A stretch of 64,000 bases of DNA from Actinomycetospora endophytica (GTDB taxonomy: Bacteria; Actinomycetota; Actinomycetes; Mycobacteriales; Pseudonocardiaceae). How positions within the stretch are numbered: the stretch's first letter is position 1; each line of letters starts with the position of its first letter. The position numbers and the translations under genes are program-made. A model generated the notes under the pieces. It saw only the letters and a program-made list of their open reading frames with translations. It made no database searches and was not told where the DNA came from. This document shows positions 8,568-54,802 of the stretch, in pieces. Location of the stretch: positions 1,674,001-1,738,000 of the forward strand of contig NZ_JAJNDB010000001.1 of assembly GCF_021026375.1 (NCBI RefSeq), written 5' to 3'.

Positions 8568-9785
8568 ATGACGGTGGACGTCGCTCGGGTCCGGGGCCAG
8601 GTCCCCGCGCTCGGTGATGGCTGGATCCACCTCGACGCGCCGGCCGGGATGCAGGTCCCGGAACAGGTCGCCACCGCGGTGTCCTCCGCGCTCCGCGCCC
8701 CGGTCTCCCCGCCCGGCGGGGTCTTCCCCGCCTCGCAGCGCGGCGGCGCGATCGTCGACGCCGCCCGCCGCGCCGTGGCCGACCTGGTGGGGGCCGAGCC
8801 CAAAGGCGTCGTCCTCGGCGCGTCGGTGCCCTCGCTGCTCGAGCGGCTCGCCGAGGTGCTCTCCGCGGGCTGGGCGCTCGGCGACGAGGTCGTGGTCTCC
8901 CGCCTCGACGACCGCGCCAACGTCGCCCCGTGGACCCGCGCCGCGAGCCGCGCGGGGGGCGCGGTGCGCACCGCCGAGGTCGACGTCGAGACCTGCGAGC
9001 TCCCGAGCTGGCAGTACGACGACCTGCTCGGCCCCCGCACCCGCGTCGTCACCGTGACCGCCGCCTGCGGCCACATCGGGACGCGCACCGAGATCGCGGC
9101 GATCGCCCGCAAGGTCCACGGACTGCCCACGCCCGCGTCGGGCATCGAGCCGCTGATGATCGTCGACGCCACGGCCGCCGCGCCCTATCTCCCGCTGGAC
9201 ATGGACACGATGGGCGCGGACGTCGTCGTGCTCTCGGCCGCGGCGTGGGGCGGCCCGGCGGTCGGGGCCCTGGTGTTCCGCACCCCGGAGCTGCTCGACC
9301 GCCTGCCCGCCGTCTCGTTCGACGCGGCCGCCCGCGGACCGGAGCGGCTCGAGGTCGGCGACGCCCCGTACGCGCTGTACGCCGGCCTCGTCGCCTCGGT
9401 GGACCACCTGGCCGAGCTCGACGACCACGCGTCCGGCTCCCGGCGCGACCGCGTGCTCACCTCGATGTCCTCGCTGCGCAGCCACCACGACGAGCTCACC
9501 GCCTACCTCGTCTCCGAGCTGCGCTTCCTGCCCGGCGTGACGGTGCTGGGCGAACCCGCCCGGCGCATCCCCACGATCGCGTTCCTGGTGGCCGGCCGCA
9601 CCGCCCAGGAGGTGGCCGAGCGGGTCGCCGACCAGGGCGTCTGCGTGCTCATCGACCCCGGCGACCAGGGCGCGCTCGAGGTCATCGGCGGTGCGGAGAT
9701 CGGCGGCGTGGTGAAGGTCGGCCTCGCGCACTACACCTCGCGGGCGGACGTCGACGCGCTGGTGCGTGCGGTGGCGTCCTGCTAG
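8568..9785 (+). CDS. Aminotransferase class V-fold protein lacking the usual PLP lysine
   Basis: A 405-residue protein with the fold of cysteine-desulfurase/EgtE-type enzymes. The N-terminal 'HLDAPAGMQVP' and the cofactor-region 'VDATAAAPYLPLDM' are recognisable. Where the Schiff-base lysine normally follows (as in 'SGHK'), residues 223-227 read S-A-A-A-W, followed by 'GGPAVGALVF'. The related mycobacterial protein next to Bpa, as I recall it, also lacks Lys here, so this seems a family trait rather than decay. Catalysis as a standard PLP enzyme is therefore doubtful. ATG at 8568 follows 'CTGGAGC'; it diverges from bpa. Its TAG stop is the first three bases of the palindromic element at 9783. 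Confidence 0.8.
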   Translation: MTVDVARVRGQVPALGDGWIHLDAPAGMQVPEQVATAVSSALRAPVSPPGGVFPASQRGGAIVDAARRAVADLVGAEPKGVVLGASVPSLLERLAEVLSAGWALGDEVVVSRLDDRANVAPWTRAASRAGGAVRTAEVDVETCELPSWQYDDLLGPRTRVVTVTAACGHIGTRTEIAAIARKVHGLPTPASGIEPLMIVDATAAAPYLPLDMDTMGADVVVLSAAAWGGPAVGALVFRTPELLDRLPAVSFDAAARGPERLEVGDAPYALYAGLVASVDHLAELDDHASGSRRDRVLTSMSSLRSHHDELTAYLVSELRFLPGVTVLGEPARRIPTIAFLVAGRTAQEVAERVADQGVCVLIDPGDQGALEVIGGAEIGGVVKVGLAHYTSRADVDALVRAVASC

Positions 9786-9858
9786 GTGCGCTCCGCGCTC
9801 GTGAGCACTAATTGAGGCTATGGCGTCAATTAGTGCTCACAGGCGCGGAGCGCACCTA
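9783..9858. repeat. Palindromic element, copy 1
   Basis: 76 bases, near-palindromic, between convergent genes. The left end TAG is the stop of the aminotransferase-fold gene, and the right end, read on the other strand, gives the TAG stop of the quinone oxidoreductase gene. The inner stem GTGAGCACTAATTGA pairs with TCAATTAGTGCTCAC. The left arm contains stops in all three forward frames within 31 bases (TAG, then TGA and TAA), and the symmetry repeats this on the other strand. Same family as 29267, 37774, 47089 and 54110. It probably also works as a bidirectional terminator hairpin. Confidence 0.9.
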
Positions 9859-10845
9859 TCCGGAGACACCCAGGACCAGCTTCCCGACGACGCCGCCCTG
9901 GTCCATCAGCTCGTGCGCCCGCGCGGCCTCCTGGACCGGGAGCCGCTCCTGGACGATCGGCCGCACGTGTCCGGCCTCGACCAGCGGCCACAGGTCGTCC
10001 CGCACCGCCGAGACGATCCCGGCCTTGCCGTCGGGTCCCTCGACCGGGCGCGCCCGCAGCGACGTCGCCCCCATCGAGAGCCGCTTCGTCAGCAGCTTCG
10101 CGAGGTTGACCTCGCCCTTCGCGCCGCCCATCAGCCCGATGATCGCCAGCCGCCCGCCGGTGGCGAGTGCGTCGAGGTTGGCCCCGAGGGTCCGGGCGCC
10201 GATGTTGTCGAGGATGAGGTCGACCCCGCGTCCGTCGGTGACCGTCTTCACGCCGTCGACGAGGTCGTCGTGGTAGTCGAGCGCGTGGTCCGCGCCCAGG
10301 TCGCGGCAGATCTGCAGCCGGTCGGCGTGACCCGCCGTCGCCAGCACCGTCGCGCCCAGCGCCTTCCCGACCTGGATGGCGTGCGTCCCGATCCCGCCGC
10401 TGCCGCCGTGCACGAGGAAGGTCTGACCCGCACGCAGGCCGCCGAGCAGGACGACGTTCGACCACACCGTGCAGGCCACCTCGGGCAGCCCGCCGGCGTC
10501 GGTGAGCGACACGCCGTCGGGGACCGGCAGCAGCTGGGCGGCCGGGACCGCCACCTTCTCGGCGTAGCCGCCGCCCGCGAGCAGCGCGCAGGCCGGGTCG
10601 CCGACGGCCCACCCGCTCACCCCGGAGCCCACCGCGCTGACCCGTCCGGAGCACTCCAGCCCGGGCAGCTCCGAGGCGCCGGGAGGCGGTGGGTAGTTGC
10701 CCTGGCGCTGCATGACGTCGGCCCGGTTGATCCCGGCGGCGACGACGTCGAGGACGACCTCGCCGGGGCCGGGTTCCGGGTCGGGCTGCTCGGTCCACTC
10801 GAGGACCTCGGGGCCGCCGAACTCGCGGATGGAGATGCCATACAC
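9856..10845 (-). CDS. NADPH:quinone oxidoreductase (MDR family, zinc-free)
   Basis: A 329-residue medium-chain reductase. The N-terminal GroES-like half has 'PGEVVLDVVAAGINRADVMQRQG' type features but no structural zinc cysteines; the Rossmann half carries 'VHGGSGGIGTHAIQ' and 'YHDDLVDGVKTVT', as in quinone oxidoreductases of the PIG3/QorA type. It likely reduces quinones or enals with NADPH. GTG at 10845 is the start. It is divergent from a MarR regulator with 90 bases between them, so control by that regulator is likely. The stop is supplied by the palindromic element at 9783-9858. Confidence 0.9.
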   Translation of the reverse strand: MYGISIREFGGPEVLEWTEQPDPEPGPGEVVLDVVAAGINRADVMQRQGNYPPPPGASELPGLECSGRVSAVGSGVSGWAVGDPACALLAGGGYAEKVAVPAAQLLPVPDGVSLTDAGGLPEVACTVWSNVVLLGGLRAGQTFLVHGGSGGIGTHAIQVGKALGATVLATAGHADRLQICRDLGADHALDYHDDLVDGVKTVTDGRGVDLILDNIGARTLGANLDALATGGRLAIIGLMGGAKGEVNLAKLLTKRLSMGATSLRARPVEGPDGKAGIVSAVRDDLWPLVEAGHVRPIVQERLPVQEAARAHELMDQGGVVGKLVLGVSG

Positions 10846-24565: not shown

Positions 24566-24642
24566 GGTCTCCTGAACGGTCGGAACCGAACAGGGACCGT
24601 CAGCAGGAAGACCTGCGGTTGAAGGTGAGCCCCATCACCTTC
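24566..24642 (-). promoter_or_regulatory. Structured 5' leader that can hide the ribosome site
   Basis: Read on the minus strand, a first hairpin has arms GAAGGTGA and TCACCTTC (24621-24642). A second, longer hairpin (24566-24613) pairs GGTCTTC with GAGACC and CTGACGGTC with GACCGTTCAG, each with a one-base bulge, burying the AGGAG of the ATG at 24563. This is what a translational switch or attenuator would look like, but no known RNA family is recognised. Confidence 0.45.
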
Positions 24643-24968
24643 CGCGGACGATAGCCCCGTGCTCGACGACGCGGTAGTCCCGATTCCCCGATGAGCGTCG
24701 ACCCGTGGACCGCAGGACATACCCGACGCACCCGGACGACCCACCGGCCGTGGACGGTCGCCGAAGCAGAGGGCCCTCCCGTGAACCGTGAGATGTGGGC
24801 GGGGCCGGGATATCGTCCGTGGGCGTACCGGGGCCGACCGCGCTCGGCAACCGGCCGGTTCGTGTCGAGGCGTCGTCGGACTCGTGCTCCAGCGGGCCCT
24901 CGACGCGGCGGGCACGTGCAGCCGGACCGAGGGCGACGTGGGCCGCTCCCCGCAGCTTGGTGGAGATC
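24643..24968. other. Region without a recognised gene
   Basis: About 325 bases between the leader of the minus-strand cryptic operon and the broken gene at 24969. Open frames exist on both strands but none has codon use, a ribosome site or protein character that I would trust. It probably holds promoters for the two divergent units. Confidence 0.5.
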
Positions 24969-29266: not shown

Positions 29267-29341
29267 TAGGTGCGCTGCGCGCTCGTGAGCACAAATTGAT
29301 GTCCTGGCGTCAATTACTGCTCACAAGCGCGCAGCGCACCT
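29267..29341. repeat. Palindromic element, copy 2
   Basis: 75 bases between purU (stop at its right end) and the start of the serine hydrolase, both on the minus strand. The left arm is TAGGTGCGCTGCGCGCTC, and the inner stem around GTGAGCACAAATTGA has two mismatched pairs. Compared with copy 1, the eleventh base is G (C in copy 1) and its partner in the right arm is C (G in copy 1), a compensatory change. Only copy of the five that stands between two genes of the same strand without overlapping the downstream start. Confidence 0.9.
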
Positions 29342-30204
29342 CAGAAGACGATCGTCGTGTCCCCGTCGCGCACCACGCGGTCCTCGCAGTGCCACCGCAC
29401 CGCCCGGGAGAGCACGGAGCGCTCGACGTCGGCGCCGAGCCGGGTGAGGTCGGCCGTCGTGTGGCGGTGGTTCACCCGCACCACGTCCTGCTCGATGATC
29501 GGCCCGTCGTCGAGGACCTCGGTGACGTAGTGCGCGGTGGCACCGACGACCTTCACCCCGCGCTCCTTGGCCTGCCGGTAGGGCGAGGCGCCCACGAACG
29601 CCGGCAGGAACGAGTGATGGATGTTGATCATCGGGGCCCCGACGGCCTCGATCATCGAGCCCGACACGATCTGCATGTAGCGCGCGAGCACCACCAGGTC
29701 GACGCCCTGCAGCAGCTCGGCCTGGCGCGTCTCCGCCTCGGCCCTCGTCTCCGGCGTCACCGGGACGTGGACGAACGGCACCCCGAAGGGTTCGACGGCG
29801 CCGGCCAGGTCGGCGTGGTTGGAGACGACGACCTCGATCGAGACGTCGAGCTCGCCGCGCTGCGTCCGCCACAGCAGGTCGAGCAGACAGTGGTCGATCC
29901 GCGAGACGAGGATGCCCAGCCGCTTCGGGACCCCGGAGTCGGTCAGCGTGAAGTCCATGCCGAACCCCCGGGCGACGTCCGAGGCGAACGCGGCGCGCAG
30001 CCCCTGGAGGTTCCCGGAGGGCAGGGCGAACTCGGTCCGCTGGAAGTAGGTGCCGCCGGTGTGGGCCGTGGCGTGCTGGTCCAGCGACAGGATGTTCGCC
30101 CCGGAGGCCGAGAGGAACGACGCGACGGCCGCGACGATGCCCTGGCGGTCGGCGCAGCGGATGAGCAGCCGGCCGACGGTGTCGGCGGACGGAGACCCGG
30201 TCAC
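29341..30204 (-). CDS. purU: Formyltetrahydrofolate deformylase
   Basis: A 287-residue enzyme that hydrolyses 10-formyl-tetrahydrofolate to formate and tetrahydrofolate, balancing one-carbon pools. An ACT domain fills the first ~85 residues ('[19 protein letters not shown]'), followed by a formyltransferase-type domain with the catalytic Asn-His in '[16 protein letters not shown]' and the Asp in '[10 protein letters not shown]'. GTG at 30204 is the start. The formate-THF ligase making the same product in reverse is 15 kb away at 45394. Its TGA stop begins at the right edge of the palindromic element. Confidence 0.95.
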
Positions 30205-37017: not shown

Positions 37018-37776
37018 ATGGATCTCGGTCTGGCCGGGCGGCGAGCCCTCGTCACCGGCGGCAGTCGGGGCATCGGACGGGCGATCGTCGAGGCCCTCGC
37101 CGACGAGGGCGCGACCGTCGCCTTCTGCGCCCGGTCCGCGGACGGCGTCGAGAAGGCGGTCGCCGAGCTGTCGGCGTCCGGGCGCGCGGTGCGCGGCGCG
37201 GCGGTCGACGTCGCCGACGGGGACGCGCTGCGGTCGTGGGTGACCTCGGCCGGCGAGGAGCTCGGCGGGATCGACGTCGTCGTCGCGAACGTGTCCGCGC
37301 TGGCGATCCCGTCCTCCGAGGAGAACTGGGAGGCGTCCTTCCGCACCGACGTGCTCGGCACGGTCCGGCTCGTCGAGGCGGCGATGCCCGCGCTGGAGGC
37401 CTCGGACGCGGCCGCGATCGTCACCATCTCGAGCGTCTCCGGCCGGGAGATCGACTTCGCGGCGGGGCCGTACGGCACGGTCAAGGGCGCGATCGTGCAC
37501 TACACCCAGGGGCTGGCCCATCAGCTCGCCGGCCGGGTGCGGGCCAACACCGTCTCGCCCGGCAACGTGTACTTCCCGGGCGGCGTCTGGGAGTCGATCG
37601 AGGCGAACAACCCGGACCTGTACGCCCACGCGCTCGGGCTCAACCCGACGGGGCGGATGGCCCGGCCCGACGAGATCGCCCGGGCGGTCGCGTTCCTCGC
37701 CAGCCCGGCGGCGTCCTTCGTCAGCGGCACGAACCTCGTCGTCGACGGGGCGCTGACGCGAGGGGTGCAGTTGTAG
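37018..37776 (+). CDS. Short-chain dehydrogenase/reductase
   Basis: A 252-residue SDR. The cofactor motif is 'GGSRGIGRAI' at residues ~14-23, the catalytic Ser is in 'IVTISSVSGREIDF', and the Y-x-x-x-K pair in 'GPYGTVKGAIVH'. The Arg in 'ADGVEK' region after strand 2 ('FCARSADG') suggests NADPH preference. Substrate unknown. ATG at 37018 follows GGAGGA closely. The stop TAG is the first three bases of palindromic element copy 3. Confidence 0.92.
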   Translation: MDLGLAGRRALVTGGSRGIGRAIVEALADEGATVAFCARSADGVEKAVAELSASGRAVRGAAVDVADGDALRSWVTSAGEELGGIDVVVANVSALAIPSSEENWEASFRTDVLGTVRLVEAAMPALEASDAAAIVTISSVSGREIDFAAGPYGTVKGAIVHYTQGLAHQLAGRVRANTVSPGNVYFPGGVWESIEANNPDLYAHALGLNPTGRMARPDEIARAVAFLASPAASFVSGTNLVVDGALTRGVQL

Positions 37777-37849
37777 GTGCGCTTCGCGCTCGTGAGCAGT
37801 AATTGACGCTATGACGTCAATTACTGCTCACAGGCGCGCAACGCACCTA
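37774..37849. repeat. Palindromic element, copy 3
   Basis: 76 bases between convergent genes; TAG stops of both genes are its two ends, as in copy 1. Inner stem GTGAGCAGTAATTGACG pairs with CGTCAATTACTGCTCAC. Compared with copy 1 the pair at the CAC/CAG position is swapped (C-G to G-C), a compensatory change. Outer arms are less well matched than in copies 1 and 2. Confidence 0.9.
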
Positions 37850-38326
37850 TCGGCGGGCGCCGGCCCGTTCCGGCCCGAAGACGAGGGTGACGACGGCCTG
37901 GGCGGCGGTCCCGACCGCGTCGACGGCGGCGACGACACCCCGCGCGGTCCAGTCGACGACGACCTCGACGCCTCGGCGGGCGGCCGATCCCGCGCGCGCC
38001 CACGTGGAGAGGACGGTGTCGACGCGGCGGGCGGGCAGGTCGCGGCGTGCCCGGACCAGCTCGGTGGAGGGTGCGGCGCTCATGGCCGGGAACGCCTCGG
38101 TGGGCCAGGTGGCGATCCGGCGGTGCGGCAGCAGCGGCCCGACGTGCGGGTGGCGCGGCGCCGGGACGTCGGCGGAGAACAGGGCCGGGCCCTCGCCGAA
38201 CCGCGCGATCGCCGCCGCCTCGCCCGCCACCAGACCGGACCGGTCCCGGGAGGCGTCGGGCCCCTCGGCCCCGCGCGCCCCCGGCCTGTCGGCGTCCCCG
38301 GACGCCTCGTCCGGCTCGTCGGTCAT
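37847..38326 (-). CDS. Hypothetical protein
   Basis: A 159-residue protein with a charged, Asp/Gly/Ala-rich first ~40 residues, then 'VGPLLPHRRIATWPTEAF' and a predicted long helix 'STWARAGSAARRGVEVVVD' to 'VAAVDAVGTAAQAVVTLVFG'. The end resembles a weak membrane or amphipathic helix. No family recognised. ATG at 38326 is the start. The stop is formed by the palindromic element. Confidence 0.6.
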   Translation of the reverse strand: MTDEPDEASGDADRPGARGAEGPDASRDRSGLVAGEAAAIARFGEGPALFSADVPAPRHPHVGPLLPHRRIATWPTEAFPAMSAAPSTELVRARRDLPARRVDTVLSTWARAGSAARRGVEVVVDWTARGVVAAVDAVGTAAQAVVTLVFGPERAGARR

Positions 38327-45393: not shown

Positions 45394-47091
45394 ATGAGCA
45401 TCCCGTCGGACCTCGAGATCGCCCAGAAAGCGACGCTGAAGCCGCTGGACGACGTCGCCGCGGCCATGGACCTGCCTCCCCACCTGTTGGAGATGCACGG
45501 CCGCGACGTCGCCAAGATCGAGCTCGACGCCATCGACGCCATGGCCGATCGCCCGCGAGCCAAGTACGTCGTCGTGACCGCGATCACACCGACGCCGCTC
45601 GGCGAGGGCAAGACGACGACGACCGTCGGGCTCGGGCAGGCGTTCTCGCACATCGGCAAGCGCGGGGTCGTCGCGATCCGGCAGCCGTCGATGGGGCCGA
45701 CGTTCGGGATCAAGGGCGGGGCCGCGGGTGGCGGCTACTCGCAGGTCGTCCCGATGGAGAAGTTCAACCTCCATCTCACCGGTGACTTCCACGCCGTGAC
45801 GAGCGCCCACAACATGCTCTCGGCGGTGCTGGACAACCACCTCTACCAGGGCAACGCGTCGGGCCTCGATCCCTATCGCGTGACCTGGCGGCGGGTGCTC
45901 GACGTCAACGACCGCGCGCTGCGCAACGTCGTCACCGGGCTCGGCGGCCGGATGGACGGGGTCCCCCGCGAGTCCGGCTTCGACATCACCTCGGCGTCCG
46001 AGGTGATGGCGATCCTCGCCCTGTCGAACTCGCTCGAGGAGATGCGCGCGCGGCTCGGTCGCATCGTCGTCGGGTACACCCGCGACGGCGACGCGGTGAC
46101 CGCCGAGGACATCCACGGCTCGGGCGCGATGGCGGCGCTCATGCGCGACGCGCTGAAGCCGAACCTCATGCAGACGCTGGAGAACACGCCGGTCCTGGTG
46201 CACGCCGGGCCGTTCGGCAACATCGCGCACGGCAACTCCTCGATCGTCGCCGACCGCATCGGCATCCACGGCGGGGACTACCTCGTCACCGAGGCCGGGT
46301 TCGGCGCCGACATGGGCGCGGAGCGGTTCTTCAACATCAAGTGCCGGGCGTCCGGGATGACGCCCGACGCGGCCGTCGTCGTCGCGACCGTGCGGGCGCT
46401 CAAGGCCCACTCCGGCAACCACAAGATCGTCGCGGGGAAGGACCTGCCCGAGGCGCTGCTCGCGGAGAACCCCGACGAGGTGCGCCAGGGCGGGGCGAAC
46501 CTGCGCAAGCAGATCGAGAACATGCGCATCCACGGCGTCTCGCCGGTGGTCTGCATCAACGCGTTCCCGACCGACCATCCCTCCGAGCACCAGGCGATCC
46601 GCGAGATCGCCGAGGAGATGGGCGCGCGGGTCGCCGTGTCGACGCACTTCTCCGACGGCGGGCGCGGCGGCGCCGAGCTCGCGGAGGCGGTGGCCGAGGC
46701 GGCGAACGAGCCGTCGAACTTCCAGCTGCTCTACTCCGACGACACCCCGCTGCGCGAGAAGATCGAGGCCGTCGCGACGAAGGTCTACGGGGCGGACGGC
46801 GTCGACTACGCGCCCGCGGCGAACTCCTCGATCGACCTCTACGAGCGCAACGGCTTCTCGAACCTGCCGGTGTGCATCGCGAAGACCCACCTGTCGATCT
46901 CGTCCGACCCGAAGCTGCTCGGCGCGCCGACCGGCTGGCGGATGCCGGTGCGGGAGGTGCGCGCGTCGGTCGGGGCCGGGTTCGTCTACCCGATCTGCGG
47001 CGACATGCGGACGATGCCGGGCCTGGGCAAGAACCCGGCCGCGCACCAGATCGACGTGAAGCCCGACGGGACCATCGTGGGGCTGTTCTAG
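45394..47091 (+). CDS. fhs: Formate-tetrahydrofolate ligase
   Basis: A 565-residue enzyme that makes 10-formyl-tetrahydrofolate from formate, THF and ATP. The P-loop is 'TPTPLGEGKTTTTVGLGQA', and the family signature 'QPSMGPTFGIKGGAAGGGYS' and 'VATVRALKAHSGNHKI' are in place. Full length. ATG at 45394 is the start. Together with fchA downstream it links formate to the methenyl/methylene-THF pool. Its TAG stop is the first three bases of palindromic element copy 4. Confidence 0.97.
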   Translation: MSIPSDLEIAQKATLKPLDDVAAAMDLPPHLLEMHGRDVAKIELDAIDAMADRPRAKYVVVTAITPTPLGEGKTTTTVGLGQAFSHIGKRGVVAIRQPSMGPTFGIKGGAAGGGYSQVVPMEKFNLHLTGDFHAVTSAHNMLSAVLDNHLYQGNASGLDPYRVTWRRVLDVNDRALRNVVTGLGGRMDGVPRESGFDITSASEVMAILALSNSLEEMRARLGRIVVGYTRDGDAVTAEDIHGSGAMAALMRDALKPNLMQTLENTPVLVHAGPFGNIAHGNSSIVADRIGIHGGDYLVTEAGFGADMGAERFFNIKCRASGMTPDAAVVVATVRALKAHSGNHKIVAGKDLPEALLAENPDEVRQGGANLRKQIENMRIHGVSPVVCINAFPTDHPSEHQAIREIAEEMGARVAVSTHFSDGGRGGAELAEAVAEAANEPSNFQLLYSDDTPLREKIEAVATKVYGADGVDYAPAANSSIDLYERNGFSNLPVCIAKTHLSISSDPKLLGAPTGWRMPVREVRASVGAGFVYPICGDMRTMPGLGKNPAAHQIDVKPDGTIVGLF

Positions 47092-47161
47092 GTGCGCTGC
47101 GCGCTCGTGAGCACAAATGGTCGCTATAGCGACCATTTGTGCTCACATGCCGGAGGCACCT
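47089..47161. repeat. Palindromic element, copy 4
   Basis: 73 bases between fhs and fchA. Core 47107-47146 is a perfect 40-base palindrome (GTGAGCACAAATGGTCGCTA and its complement), with the ATTGA core of the other copies replaced by a different, still fully paired sequence. The right outer arm has shrunk to CCGGAGGCACCT, and its GGAGG now lies 6 bases before the fchA GTG, so the element also supplies that ribosome site. Confidence 0.9.
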
Positions 47162-47162
47162 C

Positions 47163-49457: not shown

Positions 49458-49632
49458 GCCGTGTGGTGACCTCTTCCGTTGACGGACGGGAGGAAGCCGG
49501 TGCGAATCCGGCGCGGTCCCGCCACTGTCACCGGGGAGCGGACCCCACGCATGGCCACGGCCGGGAGACCGGCGGGAAGGCCGGGGCGAGCAGCGATCCG
49601 GGAGCCAGGAGACTCCTGCCGTCGCGACGTGC
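49458..49632 (+). promoter_or_regulatory. Cobalamin (B12) riboswitch
   Basis: The leader carries the class hallmarks in order: GAGGAAGCCGGTGCGAATCC (49490 onward), the conserved CCGCCACTGT around 49519-49528 and the B12 box-like GAGCCAGGAGACTCCTGCC (49602-49620). It lies ahead of the operon beginning at 49697, whose products work in cobalamin and tetrapyrrole synthesis. Binding of adenosylcobalamin would block translation start, as in other actinobacterial cases. Boundaries are approximate. Confidence 0.93.
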
Positions 49633-52917: not shown

Positions 52918-54132
52918 GTGAGCACGGCGAGCACGCTCTACCCCGTCGGTCTCGACCTGACCGGCCGCCGCGTCGTCGTCGCCGGCGGCGGGTCGGTGGC
53001 CCAGCGCCGCGTGGCCGGCCTGCTGGAGGTCGGCGCCAGCGTCGTCGTCGTCAGCCCCGCCGTCACCACCGCGCTCGAGGCGCTCGCCGACTCCCGCGAG
53101 ATCATCTGGGAGGCCCGCGAGTACGCCGCGGGCGACCTCGACGACGCCTGGTACTGCGTGGCGGCCACCGACTCGGCCGAGGTCAACGCCGAGATCGCCG
53201 CGGCCGCCGAGGCGCGCCGGGTCTTCTGCGTGCGCGCCGACGCCGCCGACGACGGCACCGCGGTCACCCCCGCCGTCGGGCGGTACGACGACGTCACGGT
53301 GGCGGTCCTCGGCGGCGGCGACCCGCGCCGCGCGAGCGGCGTGCGCGACGGCGTCGTCGAGGCCCTGCGCAGCGGCACCCTCGCCGACCGCCGCCACCGC
53401 GCGGTGAACCCCGGCGTGACCCTCGTCGGCGGAGGGCCGGGCGACCCGGGGCTGATCACGGTGAAGGGCAGGCAGGCGCTCGCGCAGGCCGACGTCGTCG
53501 TCACCGACCGGCTCGCCCCGCAGCCGCTGCTCGACGAACTGCCGCCCGACGTCACCGTCATCGACGCCTCGAAGCTGCCCCGCGGCCGGTACATGAGTCA
53601 GGACACGATCAACGCCGTGCTGGTCGACGAGGCCAAGGCCGGCAACCGCGTGGTGCGGCTCAAGGGCGGCGACCCGTTCGTGTTCGGCCGCGGCTACGAG
53701 GAGATCCAGGCGTGCGCGGCCGCCGGGATCACGGTGGACGTCATCCCGGGGGTGACCAGCGCGATCTCCGTCCCCGCGCTCGCCGGCGTGCCGGTGACCC
53801 ACCGTGGGGTGACCCACGAGTTCGTCGTCGTCTCGGGCCACCTGCCGCCCGGGCACGCGGAGTCGCTCGTCGACTGGGATGCGCTCGGCCGGCTGACCGG
53901 CACGATCGTACTGCTCATGGCGGTGGAGAACATCGGGCTGATCACCGAGGCGCTCGTCGCGGGTGGCCGGGACCCGGAGACGCCCGCCGTCGCGGTCCAG
54001 GAGGGCGGGCTGCCGGGGGAGACGACGGCCCGCGCGACGCTGGCCAAGCTGCCCGGGGCGATCGCCGCGGCGGGGATCCGCCCGCCCGCGGTCGTCGTGA
54101 TCGGCGCCGTAGGTGCGCTGGCGCGCGTGTGA
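52918..54132 (+). CDS. cysG: Precorrin-2 dehydrogenase / uroporphyrinogen-III methyltransferase fusion
   Basis: A 404-residue bifunctional enzyme. Residues ~1-160 are a Rossmann precorrin-2 dehydrogenase ('VVVAGGGSVAQRRVAGLLE'), and ~163-404 a SUMT methylase ('GPGDPGLITVKGRQAL', 'RYMSQDTIN', 'LKGGDPFVFGRG', 'VIPGVTSAISVP'). Together they turn uroporphyrinogen III into sirohydrochlorin or precorrin-2 for siroheme and B12. GTG at 52918 is the start, 22 bases past bluB-cobT. The final codons 'GALARV' and the TGA stop are supplied by palindromic element copy 5. Confidence 0.95.
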   Translation: MSTASTLYPVGLDLTGRRVVVAGGGSVAQRRVAGLLEVGASVVVVSPAVTTALEALADSREIIWEAREYAAGDLDDAWYCVAATDSAEVNAEIAAAAEARRVFCVRADAADDGTAVTPAVGRYDDVTVAVLGGGDPRRASGVRDGVVEALRSGTLADRRHRAVNPGVTLVGGGPGDPGLITVKGRQALAQADVVVTDRLAPQPLLDELPPDVTVIDASKLPRGRYMSQDTINAVLVDEAKAGNRVVRLKGGDPFVFGRGYEEIQACAAAGITVDVIPGVTSAISVPALAGVPVTHRGVTHEFVVVSGHLPPGHAESLVDWDALGRLTGTIVLLMAVENIGLITEALVAGGRDPETPAVAVQEGGLPGETTARATLAKLPGAIAAAGIRPPAVVVIGAVGALARV

Positions 54133-54185
54133 GCAGAAATTGATGCTCCGGCATCAATTAGTGCTCACGAGCGCGGAGCGCACCT
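54110..54185. repeat. Palindromic element, copy 5
   Basis: 76 bases between the convergent cysG and DUF1707 genes. Unlike copies 1 and 3, both genes read into the element: cysG ends at TGA (54130) after 'GALARV', and the minus-strand DUF1707 gene ends at TAA (54158) after 'GALRAREH', so it encodes the last residues of both proteins. The inner stem around AAATTGATGC and GCATCAATTA carries two mismatches. Confidence 0.9.
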
Positions 54186-54802
54186 TCCGTCGCGGTGAGC
54201 ACCTGGATGCTGCCGAACGCCCCGCGCCCGGACACCTGGACCTCCGGCGCCCCCGGCGGCCCGGGCGCACAGGCGGTGTCGCAGTTCGTGCTGCCGAAGA
54301 TCGTCGTGCCGGTCGTGGTGACGTGGGTGCCGTCGGGGACCACGACCTTCGTCGACCCGAACAGCACGCCCACCTGCACCGTCGACTCCCCGGGCGCGAC
54401 CTGCACGGTGCGGCTGCCGAACACCGCCGCGCCCTGGTCGGCGGAGACGACGCCGGGCGCCACGATCGCCACGACGGCGACCACGACGAGGCCGAGGAGT
54501 CCGCGCCTGCCCCGGTGCCGTCCGTGGTGCTCGGGTTCCGGCGGGCGCGCGTCGTCGTGCCAGGCCGGCTCGGTGGCCGTCGTCGGCCGCTCGTCGGGGG
54601 CGGGCTGCGGCACGGGAGCCGGCAGATCCGCGATCAGCGGGTCCAGCTCGCTGCGGAACCTCGCCGCGTAGGCCGCCTTCGCGCGCTCGTCGTACTCGAC
54701 GAGGGTCAGCATCCCGTCGTCGTGGGCGGCCCGGAGCCGGTCGTCGATCTCGCGCCGTTCCCGGTCGCCGATCCGCAGTTCCCCGTCCCCCACGTGACCC
54801 AT
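54158..54802 (-). CDS. DUF1707 domain membrane protein
   Basis: A 214-residue protein. The DUF1707 domain covers residues ~8-55 ('LRIGDRERREIDDRLRAAHD', 'LVEYDERAKAAYAARFRSEL'), followed by a Pro-rich linker, a basic patch, one membrane segment near 103-120 ('LLGLVVVAVVAIVAPGVV') and a beta-rich outer domain with 'TTIFGSTNCDTACAPGP' like LiaF-type repeats. Function unknown; members often sit near kinases or chaperones. It lies downstream of the Hsp70-like gene by 39 bases on the same strand. Its last residues come from the palindromic element. Confidence 0.85.
   Translation of the reverse strand: MGHVGDGELRIGDRERREIDDRLRAAHDDGMLTLVEYDERAKAAYAARFRSELDPLIADLPAPVPQPAPDERPTTATEPAWHDDARPPEPEHHGRHRGRRGLLGLVVVAVVAIVAPGVVSADQGAAVFGSRTVQVAPGESTVQVGVLFGSTKVVVPDGTHVTTTGTTIFGSTNCDTACAPGPPGAPEVQVSGRGAFGSIQVLTATEGALRAREH

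Follow-up and report, generated by a model that had tools for sequence, protein, structure and literature searches.

The window, a 64-kb stretch of an Actinomycetospora genome, carries five copies of a palindromic element that is probably a REPIN-like miniature repeat, copied within lineages without a detected RAYT and established at gene ends; its mobilizer, its movement and any effect on RNA are putative. With up to 183 such copies in one genome, a range of 2 to 183 among congeners and no RAYT found, the question of how repeats of this kind spread becomes directly testable. The repeats also rewrite the 3′ ends of genes, stop codons included.

Five copies in the window

The first-pass annotation of the window described a palindromic family of five copies, and all five palindromes are present where it placed them. 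A covariance model built without the window copies (37 rows, 10 of them other copies from the window's own genome, G000) scores each of the five at 75 to 92 bits on both strands, the best score elsewhere in the window being 18.5 bits. Within the window, GTGAGCASWAAT without mismatch is confined to these copies. The features are listed below, with no strand assigned to the elements or their hairpins; A1 is the alignment described in the section on anatomy.

9783–9858: copy 1, full element, between convergent genes
Stop at 9783–9785, plus strand: class-V aminotransferase gene, left flank of copy 1
Stop at 9856–9858, minus strand: zinc dehydrogenase gene, right flank of copy 1
9788–9798: copy 1, left local hairpin GCGC-TCC-GCGC (A1 columns 6–16; covariation)
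9801–9840: copy 1, central 40-nt hairpin GTGAGCA...TGCTCAC (A1 columns 19–58)
9843–9853: copy 1, right local hairpin GCGC-GGA-GCGC, GNA loop (A1 columns 61–71)
29267–29342: copy 2, flanked by two minus-strand genes; the gene at 29341–30204 has its TGA at the right tip
37774–37849: copy 3, between convergent genes 37018–37776 (plus) and 37847–38326 (minus), each stopping on a tip TAG
47089–47162: copy 4, between an FTHFS gene (stop TAG 47089–47091) and an FTCD_C-like gene (called start 47163)
54110–54186: copy 5, between convergent genes that both enter the element, with a TGA ending at 54132 and a minus-strand TAA starting at 54158

As the annotation had it, the left-end TAG is the stop codon of the plus-strand gene in three copies (stops ending at 9785, 37776 and 47091), and at copies 1 and 3 both convergent genes draw their TAG from the two ends of the element. 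The gene ends facing copies 2 and 5 stop on TGA or TAA, not on a tip TAG. The wholesale replacement of the core in copy 4, also noticed then, is borne out.

An Rfam scan gave no gathering-level match at the elements. When run permissively around copy 1, it returned three matches to microRNA-precursor models, the best with an E value of 6.6e-6 and 39.9 bits against a gathering score of 268, which we set aside and read as the response of such models to any long hairpin. Elsewhere in the window, a cobalamin riboswitch (49460–49630, plus strand) and a fluoride riboswitch (24584–24648, minus strand) score above their Rfam gathering thresholds.

Family size and the copies examined

The window's own genome comprises 6.98 Mb in 17 contigs. 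Orthologs of one window protein in eight Actinomycetospora genomes, 63 to 93% identical, put the organism within or beside that genus of the Pseudonocardiaceae, with three weak matches elsewhere. An exact search for GTGAGCA-N24-28-TGCTCAC finds 183 copies in it, compared to none when the pattern is read backwards, and a stricter core finds 112. The copies are thus many genome-wide, as the first-pass reading of the element presupposed. For closer analysis we used 60 six-kilobase stretches around listed copies, the window and three 3-kb loci, together 57 segments and 420 kb. A relaxed core has 80 matches in this sample, and the core is 40 nt long in 78 of them, the search having allowed 32 to 48 nt. 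Removal of one match that did not look like a member of the family left 79 copies, out of at least 183 in the genome; a few are degenerate, that at C14:179926 being the worst. The sample omits 4 of the 67 listed places outside the window and is biased toward copies resembling copy 1 and toward the first contigs. Gene calls come from a purpose-written codon-usage script rather than a published gene finder.

Anatomy and covariation

The element consists of a small hairpin with a TNC loop, a central hairpin of 40 nt (GTGAGCA...TGCTCAC) and a mirror-image hairpin with a GNA loop, bounded by tips reading TAG...CTA and spanning mostly 76 bp. Among the 42 equal-length copies within the 79, the column pairs that covary most strongly are 7-15, 63-69 and 8-14, which belong to the two small local hairpins; pairs of the central stem rank lower and are interspersed with linked columns. 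We then scored both possible folds on A1, an alignment of 37 sequences from five species, in which the rows from relatives were chosen for arms of the 4-3-4 form (36 of 65 relative copies passed and 27 were used, other arm lengths being omitted). The three-hairpin, or clover, model is paired in 94.5% of 1,073 cells and contains 118 double-change cells, compared to 31.9 in shuffles. The local hairpins are paired in 98.0% (left) and 98.6% (right) of cells and the central helix in 94.0%. A single long stem is paired in 87.8% of 1,258 cells and fails at the arm columns, with columns 7-70 broken in 15 of 37 sequences and 11-66 in 23 of 37. The long stem was therefore rejected as the conserved fold on covariation, although minimum-energy folding, as DNA and as RNA, prefers one long hairpin in all three copies folded, two of which have unlike arms.

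These results refine what the first-pass annotation had said of paired changes. Its suspicion of covariation was justified, the signal being strong, and compensatory change in a palindromic family stands; the notion of one conserved stem does not, since the arms are separate small hairpins. Its change from CAC/GTG to CAG/CTG falls on a true central pair, 26-51, with 5 double changes and 8 broken pairs among 37 sequences. Its paired change at the eleventh base pair was not confirmed, as column 11 is the loop of the left local hairpin and 11/66 is unpaired in 23 of 37. The two arms vary independently of each other.

Among the 274 arms in the examined DNA that close a 4-bp hairpin (non-closing arms being uncounted), loops of three bases read TNC or GNA in 230 of 236 and loops of four bases read TNNC or GNNA in 35 of 38. 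Only 3 of those 35 fit the GNRA rule for RNA, and GNA and GNNA loops are named in PMC4686876 for extraordinarily stable DNA mini-hairpins. The element could fold on one strand either as a long hairpin or as a three-leaf clover.

Docking on gene ends and stop codons

All 79 examined copies lie between called genes, and most overlap a gene end. Placement unrelated to gene ends, one of the outcomes that the first-pass annotation had named as fatal to its claim, is not what we find, gene-end placement being strict in this sample. The neighboring genes are convergent at 50 copies, tandem at 27 and divergent at 2, compared to 11, 43 and 11 among the 65 neighbor pairs of the window, a marked convergent excess (50/79 versus 11/65; Fisher p = 1.5e-8). 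The copies are faced by 127 gene 3′ ends, of which 91 have their stop at the tip (13 to 18 nt from the core in the 79 copies), 32 inside the element and 4 before it. The family does supply gene ends and stop codons, as first proposed, at 123 of 127 facing ends, and 100 of these 123 are in phase with the tip. Tips that bear TA and face a 3′ end provide the TAG stop in use in 89 of 99 cases. Overall, TAG is the stop codon at 93 of 127 element-facing ends versus 47 of the 274 other genes called in the examined DNA, by which measure the repeats account in part for stop-codon usage and C-termini in these genomes. In integrons, cassette stops overlap attC sites.

Docking extends to congeners. Twenty copies in G017 were examined, with the tip taken as 10 to 24 nt from the core and a 21st copy, called inside a gene, omitted; 30 of their 31 facing ends have a stop at the tip or within the element, and TGA is the stop codon at 22 of the 31. 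The share of ends that use a tip TAG is 24 of 38 in G010, 9 of 26 in G003, 1 of 7 in G015 and 8 of 31 in G017, and a tip TAG is commonest in G000 and G010. Docking is thus general in the samples and the tip TAG a lineage feature.

Strict placement of this kind raises the possibility that the host selects the element as a bidirectional gene-end module, its hairpin ending or protecting the transcripts of convergent genes and the family being kept up and homogenized because gene ends need one, with mobility incidental. The convergent excess and the docking on stop codons both favor this alternative, which we hold to be the most credible of three rivals but still a tentative one. From position, a transcription-terminator role is plausible. 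However, taken as signals for transcription, the stop signals of the first-pass annotation gain no support from the sequence. An intrinsic terminator has a G+C-rich stem followed by a T-run, and no T-run follows the element in the 79 copies, the mean being 1.66 T in 8 nt with the tip T included (maximum 4), compared to 1.05 at random. No terminator-like site was called at copies 2 to 4, the copies scanned, and in tandem contexts G-T mismatches show no excess over A-C mismatches (10 versus 13, in few cells) that would indicate a transcribed-strand bias.

Turnover within the genus

Among 18 genus genomes, some of them incomplete, copy number is lowest in G012, at 2 (with 1 match to the backwards control), and highest in G000, at 183, and the inner stem is typical of the species: TTGACG.. 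in G000, GTGTCG.. in G010, GTGGGG.. in G003 and part of G015, and TTCGGAGTGC.. in G017. This range of copy number and the species-typical inner stems indicate that the family amplifies or homogenizes within lineages, and 2 to 183 copies among congeners are hard to reconcile with a required part of the gene end.

Comparison of orthologous sites gives a mixed picture. Five of 17 relatives have a member of the family at the copy-1 site, one of these being cut by a contig end and another interrupted. In the 12 element-free relatives, ungapped extension places the aminotransferase stop at the same codon in all 12, as TGA in 7 and TAG in 5. The interrupted copy, in G003 (L133, about 2584 to 2640), has its center broken by unrelated DNA, with no right half within the examined flank; this may be an insertion sequence with the palindrome as its target. 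Copy 4 has a counterpart at the same place in L115, of the same core type and differing by paired changes, a compensated change in place that fits upkeep by the host. Among the other loci for that site, L121 shows another core, L120 retains a remnant of the left arm, and L116 to L119 and L122 have nothing. In L120, the left arm alone is fused at GTGAGC to the start of the next gene, which looks like a deletion between the direct GTGAGC repeats found in L121 (near position 9930 in both loci).

Of nine G000 sites compared, the family is present in G010 at 4 of 7 recovered and in G014 at 3 of 6. The closest pair compared, G017 and G002, are 96.5% identical in one stretch, and the family is common to both at 7 of 9 recovered sites; at another the copy has decayed, and at the last, L232, the central palindromes are different and the right arm is nearly identical; three further sites were not recovered with both flanks. 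The family occupies 1 of 4 recovered sites in G008, with another palindrome at 2 and none at 1. Where filled and unfilled sites are compared, the stop of the left gene is kept and the stretch between the stops, some 20 nt at C9:537008 and some 50 nt in G004 versus G008, differs. This looks like replacement of the inter-stop stretch, though at divergences of 5 to 15% later loss may be responsible. No compared site matched a clean insertion with an intact empty counterpart.

Other palindromes or repeats at several orthologous gene ends again lend weight to selection for a gene-end structure. In the orthologous convergent-gene spacers L127 to L143 and L196 to L220, several other dispersed-looking palindromic repeats occur in other species, for example GGAGCGAGGGTCACCCTCGCTGCGT..., GAGTGGACCGTGAGGGCTGCC... 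and a type CTTCCTGGCGTC...GACGCCAGGA.

Paired changes could also arise by repair of imperfect palindromes, and a second alternative is that mutation accounts for the paired changes and the species-typical cores, template switching correcting imperfect palindromes and recombination between copies homogenizing them, with the structure itself unselected. The L232 pair, with its different central palindromes and nearly identical right arm, and the apparent deletion in L120 are consistent with such processes. Correction alone, however, leaves unexplained why the inner stem changes but the TNC/GNA loops, the length of the core and GTGAGCA persist, and we think this origin unlikely.

Known repeat systems and the search for a mobilizer

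On the current view, REPINs rely on a Y1 transposase encoded by a single-copy gene. The first-pass annotation saw no REP-associated transposase in the window, and that absence extends to G000 and its 17 congeners: the RAYT-type Y1 transposase model PF01797 has no match in any of the 18 genus genomes, the control giving matches in 5 of 14. The enzyme that spreads REPINs is thus missing or too divergent for that model; possibly a RAYT has diverged beyond PF01797, or the mobilizer has since been lost. In about 1.37 Mb of examined DNA (overlaps counted), no arms were seen to bracket a transposase. Three of the 274 arms lack a partner (one at a contig end, one in the interrupted G003 copy and one in an unrelated-looking match), and for these three the flanking letters were inspected.

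REPINs are described by Bertels and Rainey 2011 (PMC3116915) as doublets of REPs around a spacer whose length and pairing are conserved and which shows compensatory changes. Two folds have been proposed for them, a long hairpin and a clover, the latter being the form likely read by RAYT. The present element likewise has two inverted, self-palindromic units around a pairing spacer of conserved length, compensatory changes, the same two candidate folds and many dispersed, mainly extragenic copies. It is unlike REPINs in that a RAYT in the genome with REPs beside it was not detected in its 18 genus genomes, that the family is actinobacterial, that its arms are 11- to 12-nt hairpins with GNA/GNNA loops and that its copies are docked on stop codons.

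The provision of TAG stops by REP termini is already known. In Di Nocera et al. 2013 (PMC3733652), GTAG REPs lie downstream of genes, between convergent or unidirectional ORFs, with termini that often give a TAG stop, a likeness in both location and stop supply; the text of that paper contains no word beginning Actinobacter. GTAG REPs as described there are 20 to 40 bp long with an unpaired GTAG at one end, unlike the present element, which is mostly 76 bp and has TAG at both ends, within the outer stem and with complementary tips. A G precedes the left TA in 33 of 64 cases, and the inserts are 63 to 75 nt plus two tip bases per side. As its anatomy matches that of REPINs, and TAG-supplying REP termini are already in print, we consider the element REPIN-like by design and not a proven member.

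In the REPIN-like reading that we prefer, the unit would be a central hairpin of fixed length flanked by two short inverted hairpins, its REP-like arms. A putative process acting on single-stranded DNA, present or past, would copy it lineage by lineage, reading the GNA/GNNA-loop arms together with the GTGAGCA stem. Copies landing at gene 3′ ends would persist because the tip and the interior offer stop codons, and the structure may separate or protect the 3′ ends of genes that are mostly convergent. Against this reading stand the lack of a PF01797 match, the energetic preference for the long hairpin even with unlike arms, the sharing of 7 of 9 recovered sites by the two closest genomes and the failure to catch a clean insertion.

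The remaining alternative involves a transposase of another type. RUP and Correia elements are MITEs of the IS630 type, small, palindromic and TA-targeting, with TA at their ends. If the present unit were GGTG...CACC and the flanking TA a target duplication of an IS630/Tc1-mariner MITE, the in-frame TAG would follow from a genome of 74% G+C in which coding TA falls mostly in phase 0, in Tyr or stop codons. Of the 79 copies, 41 have TA at each end and a further 34 at one, 2,264 of 2,452 coding TA dinucleotides fall in phase 0, and the used TAG at tips facing 3′ ends is as this scheme would have it. We nevertheless judge it improbable, as the IS630 domain DDE_3 (PF13358) has no match in G000 and occurs in 5 of 18 genus genomes, the tips in G017 are often not TA, TGA is used by 7 of 12 element-free relatives at the copy-1 site, and the compared sites (about 5 to 20% divergent) have lost the native inter-stop stretch and demonstrate no simple TA duplication.

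A wider family in Pseudonocardiaceae

The covariance model of the element has matches in 21 of 150 sampled Pseudonocardiaceae genomes, in 9 of 46 genera, under strict filters with 32 candidates scored per genome; matches near 1e-4 to 1e-5 may be due to chance. Among the papers listed for palindromes, stop codons, REPs and MITEs with Actinomycetospora, Pseudonocardiaceae or Actinobacteria, mostly outside subscription journals, none describes the family, as judged by titles and the beginnings of abstracts.

A sister core, GTGAGTG-N24-28-CACTCAC, has 139 copies in G053, 117 in G060, 97 in G070 and 16 in G000, and at least one in 34 of 100 relatives, some single copies perhaps being chance (six genomes have one match to the backwards control). 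In 400 kb of G053, with genes called by the codon usage of G000, 5 of 10 sister-core copies lie between convergent genes, compared to 68 of 347 background pairs, and at 12 of 14 facing 3′ ends the stop lies no more than about 20 nt from the core. By eye, none of the 10 has GNA arms, and the arms are thus not universal. It is tempting, if speculative, to propose a set of structure-defined mobile repeats across the Pseudonocardiaceae, with GTGAG-YR cores of about 40 nt and with or without GNA-hairpin arms, that would spread free of RAYT, home to gene ends by replacing the inter-stop stretch with their own stops and swap the central hairpin independently of the arms.

In G000 itself, the 16 places of the GTGAGTG...CACTCAC palindrome occur alongside the GTGAGCA family, with inner stems that are often GGATTTGGTCG-type. 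In a sister genus, locus L276 of G021 has a GTGAGTG core with TNC/GNA arms at 1501–1576, between two minus-strand genes.
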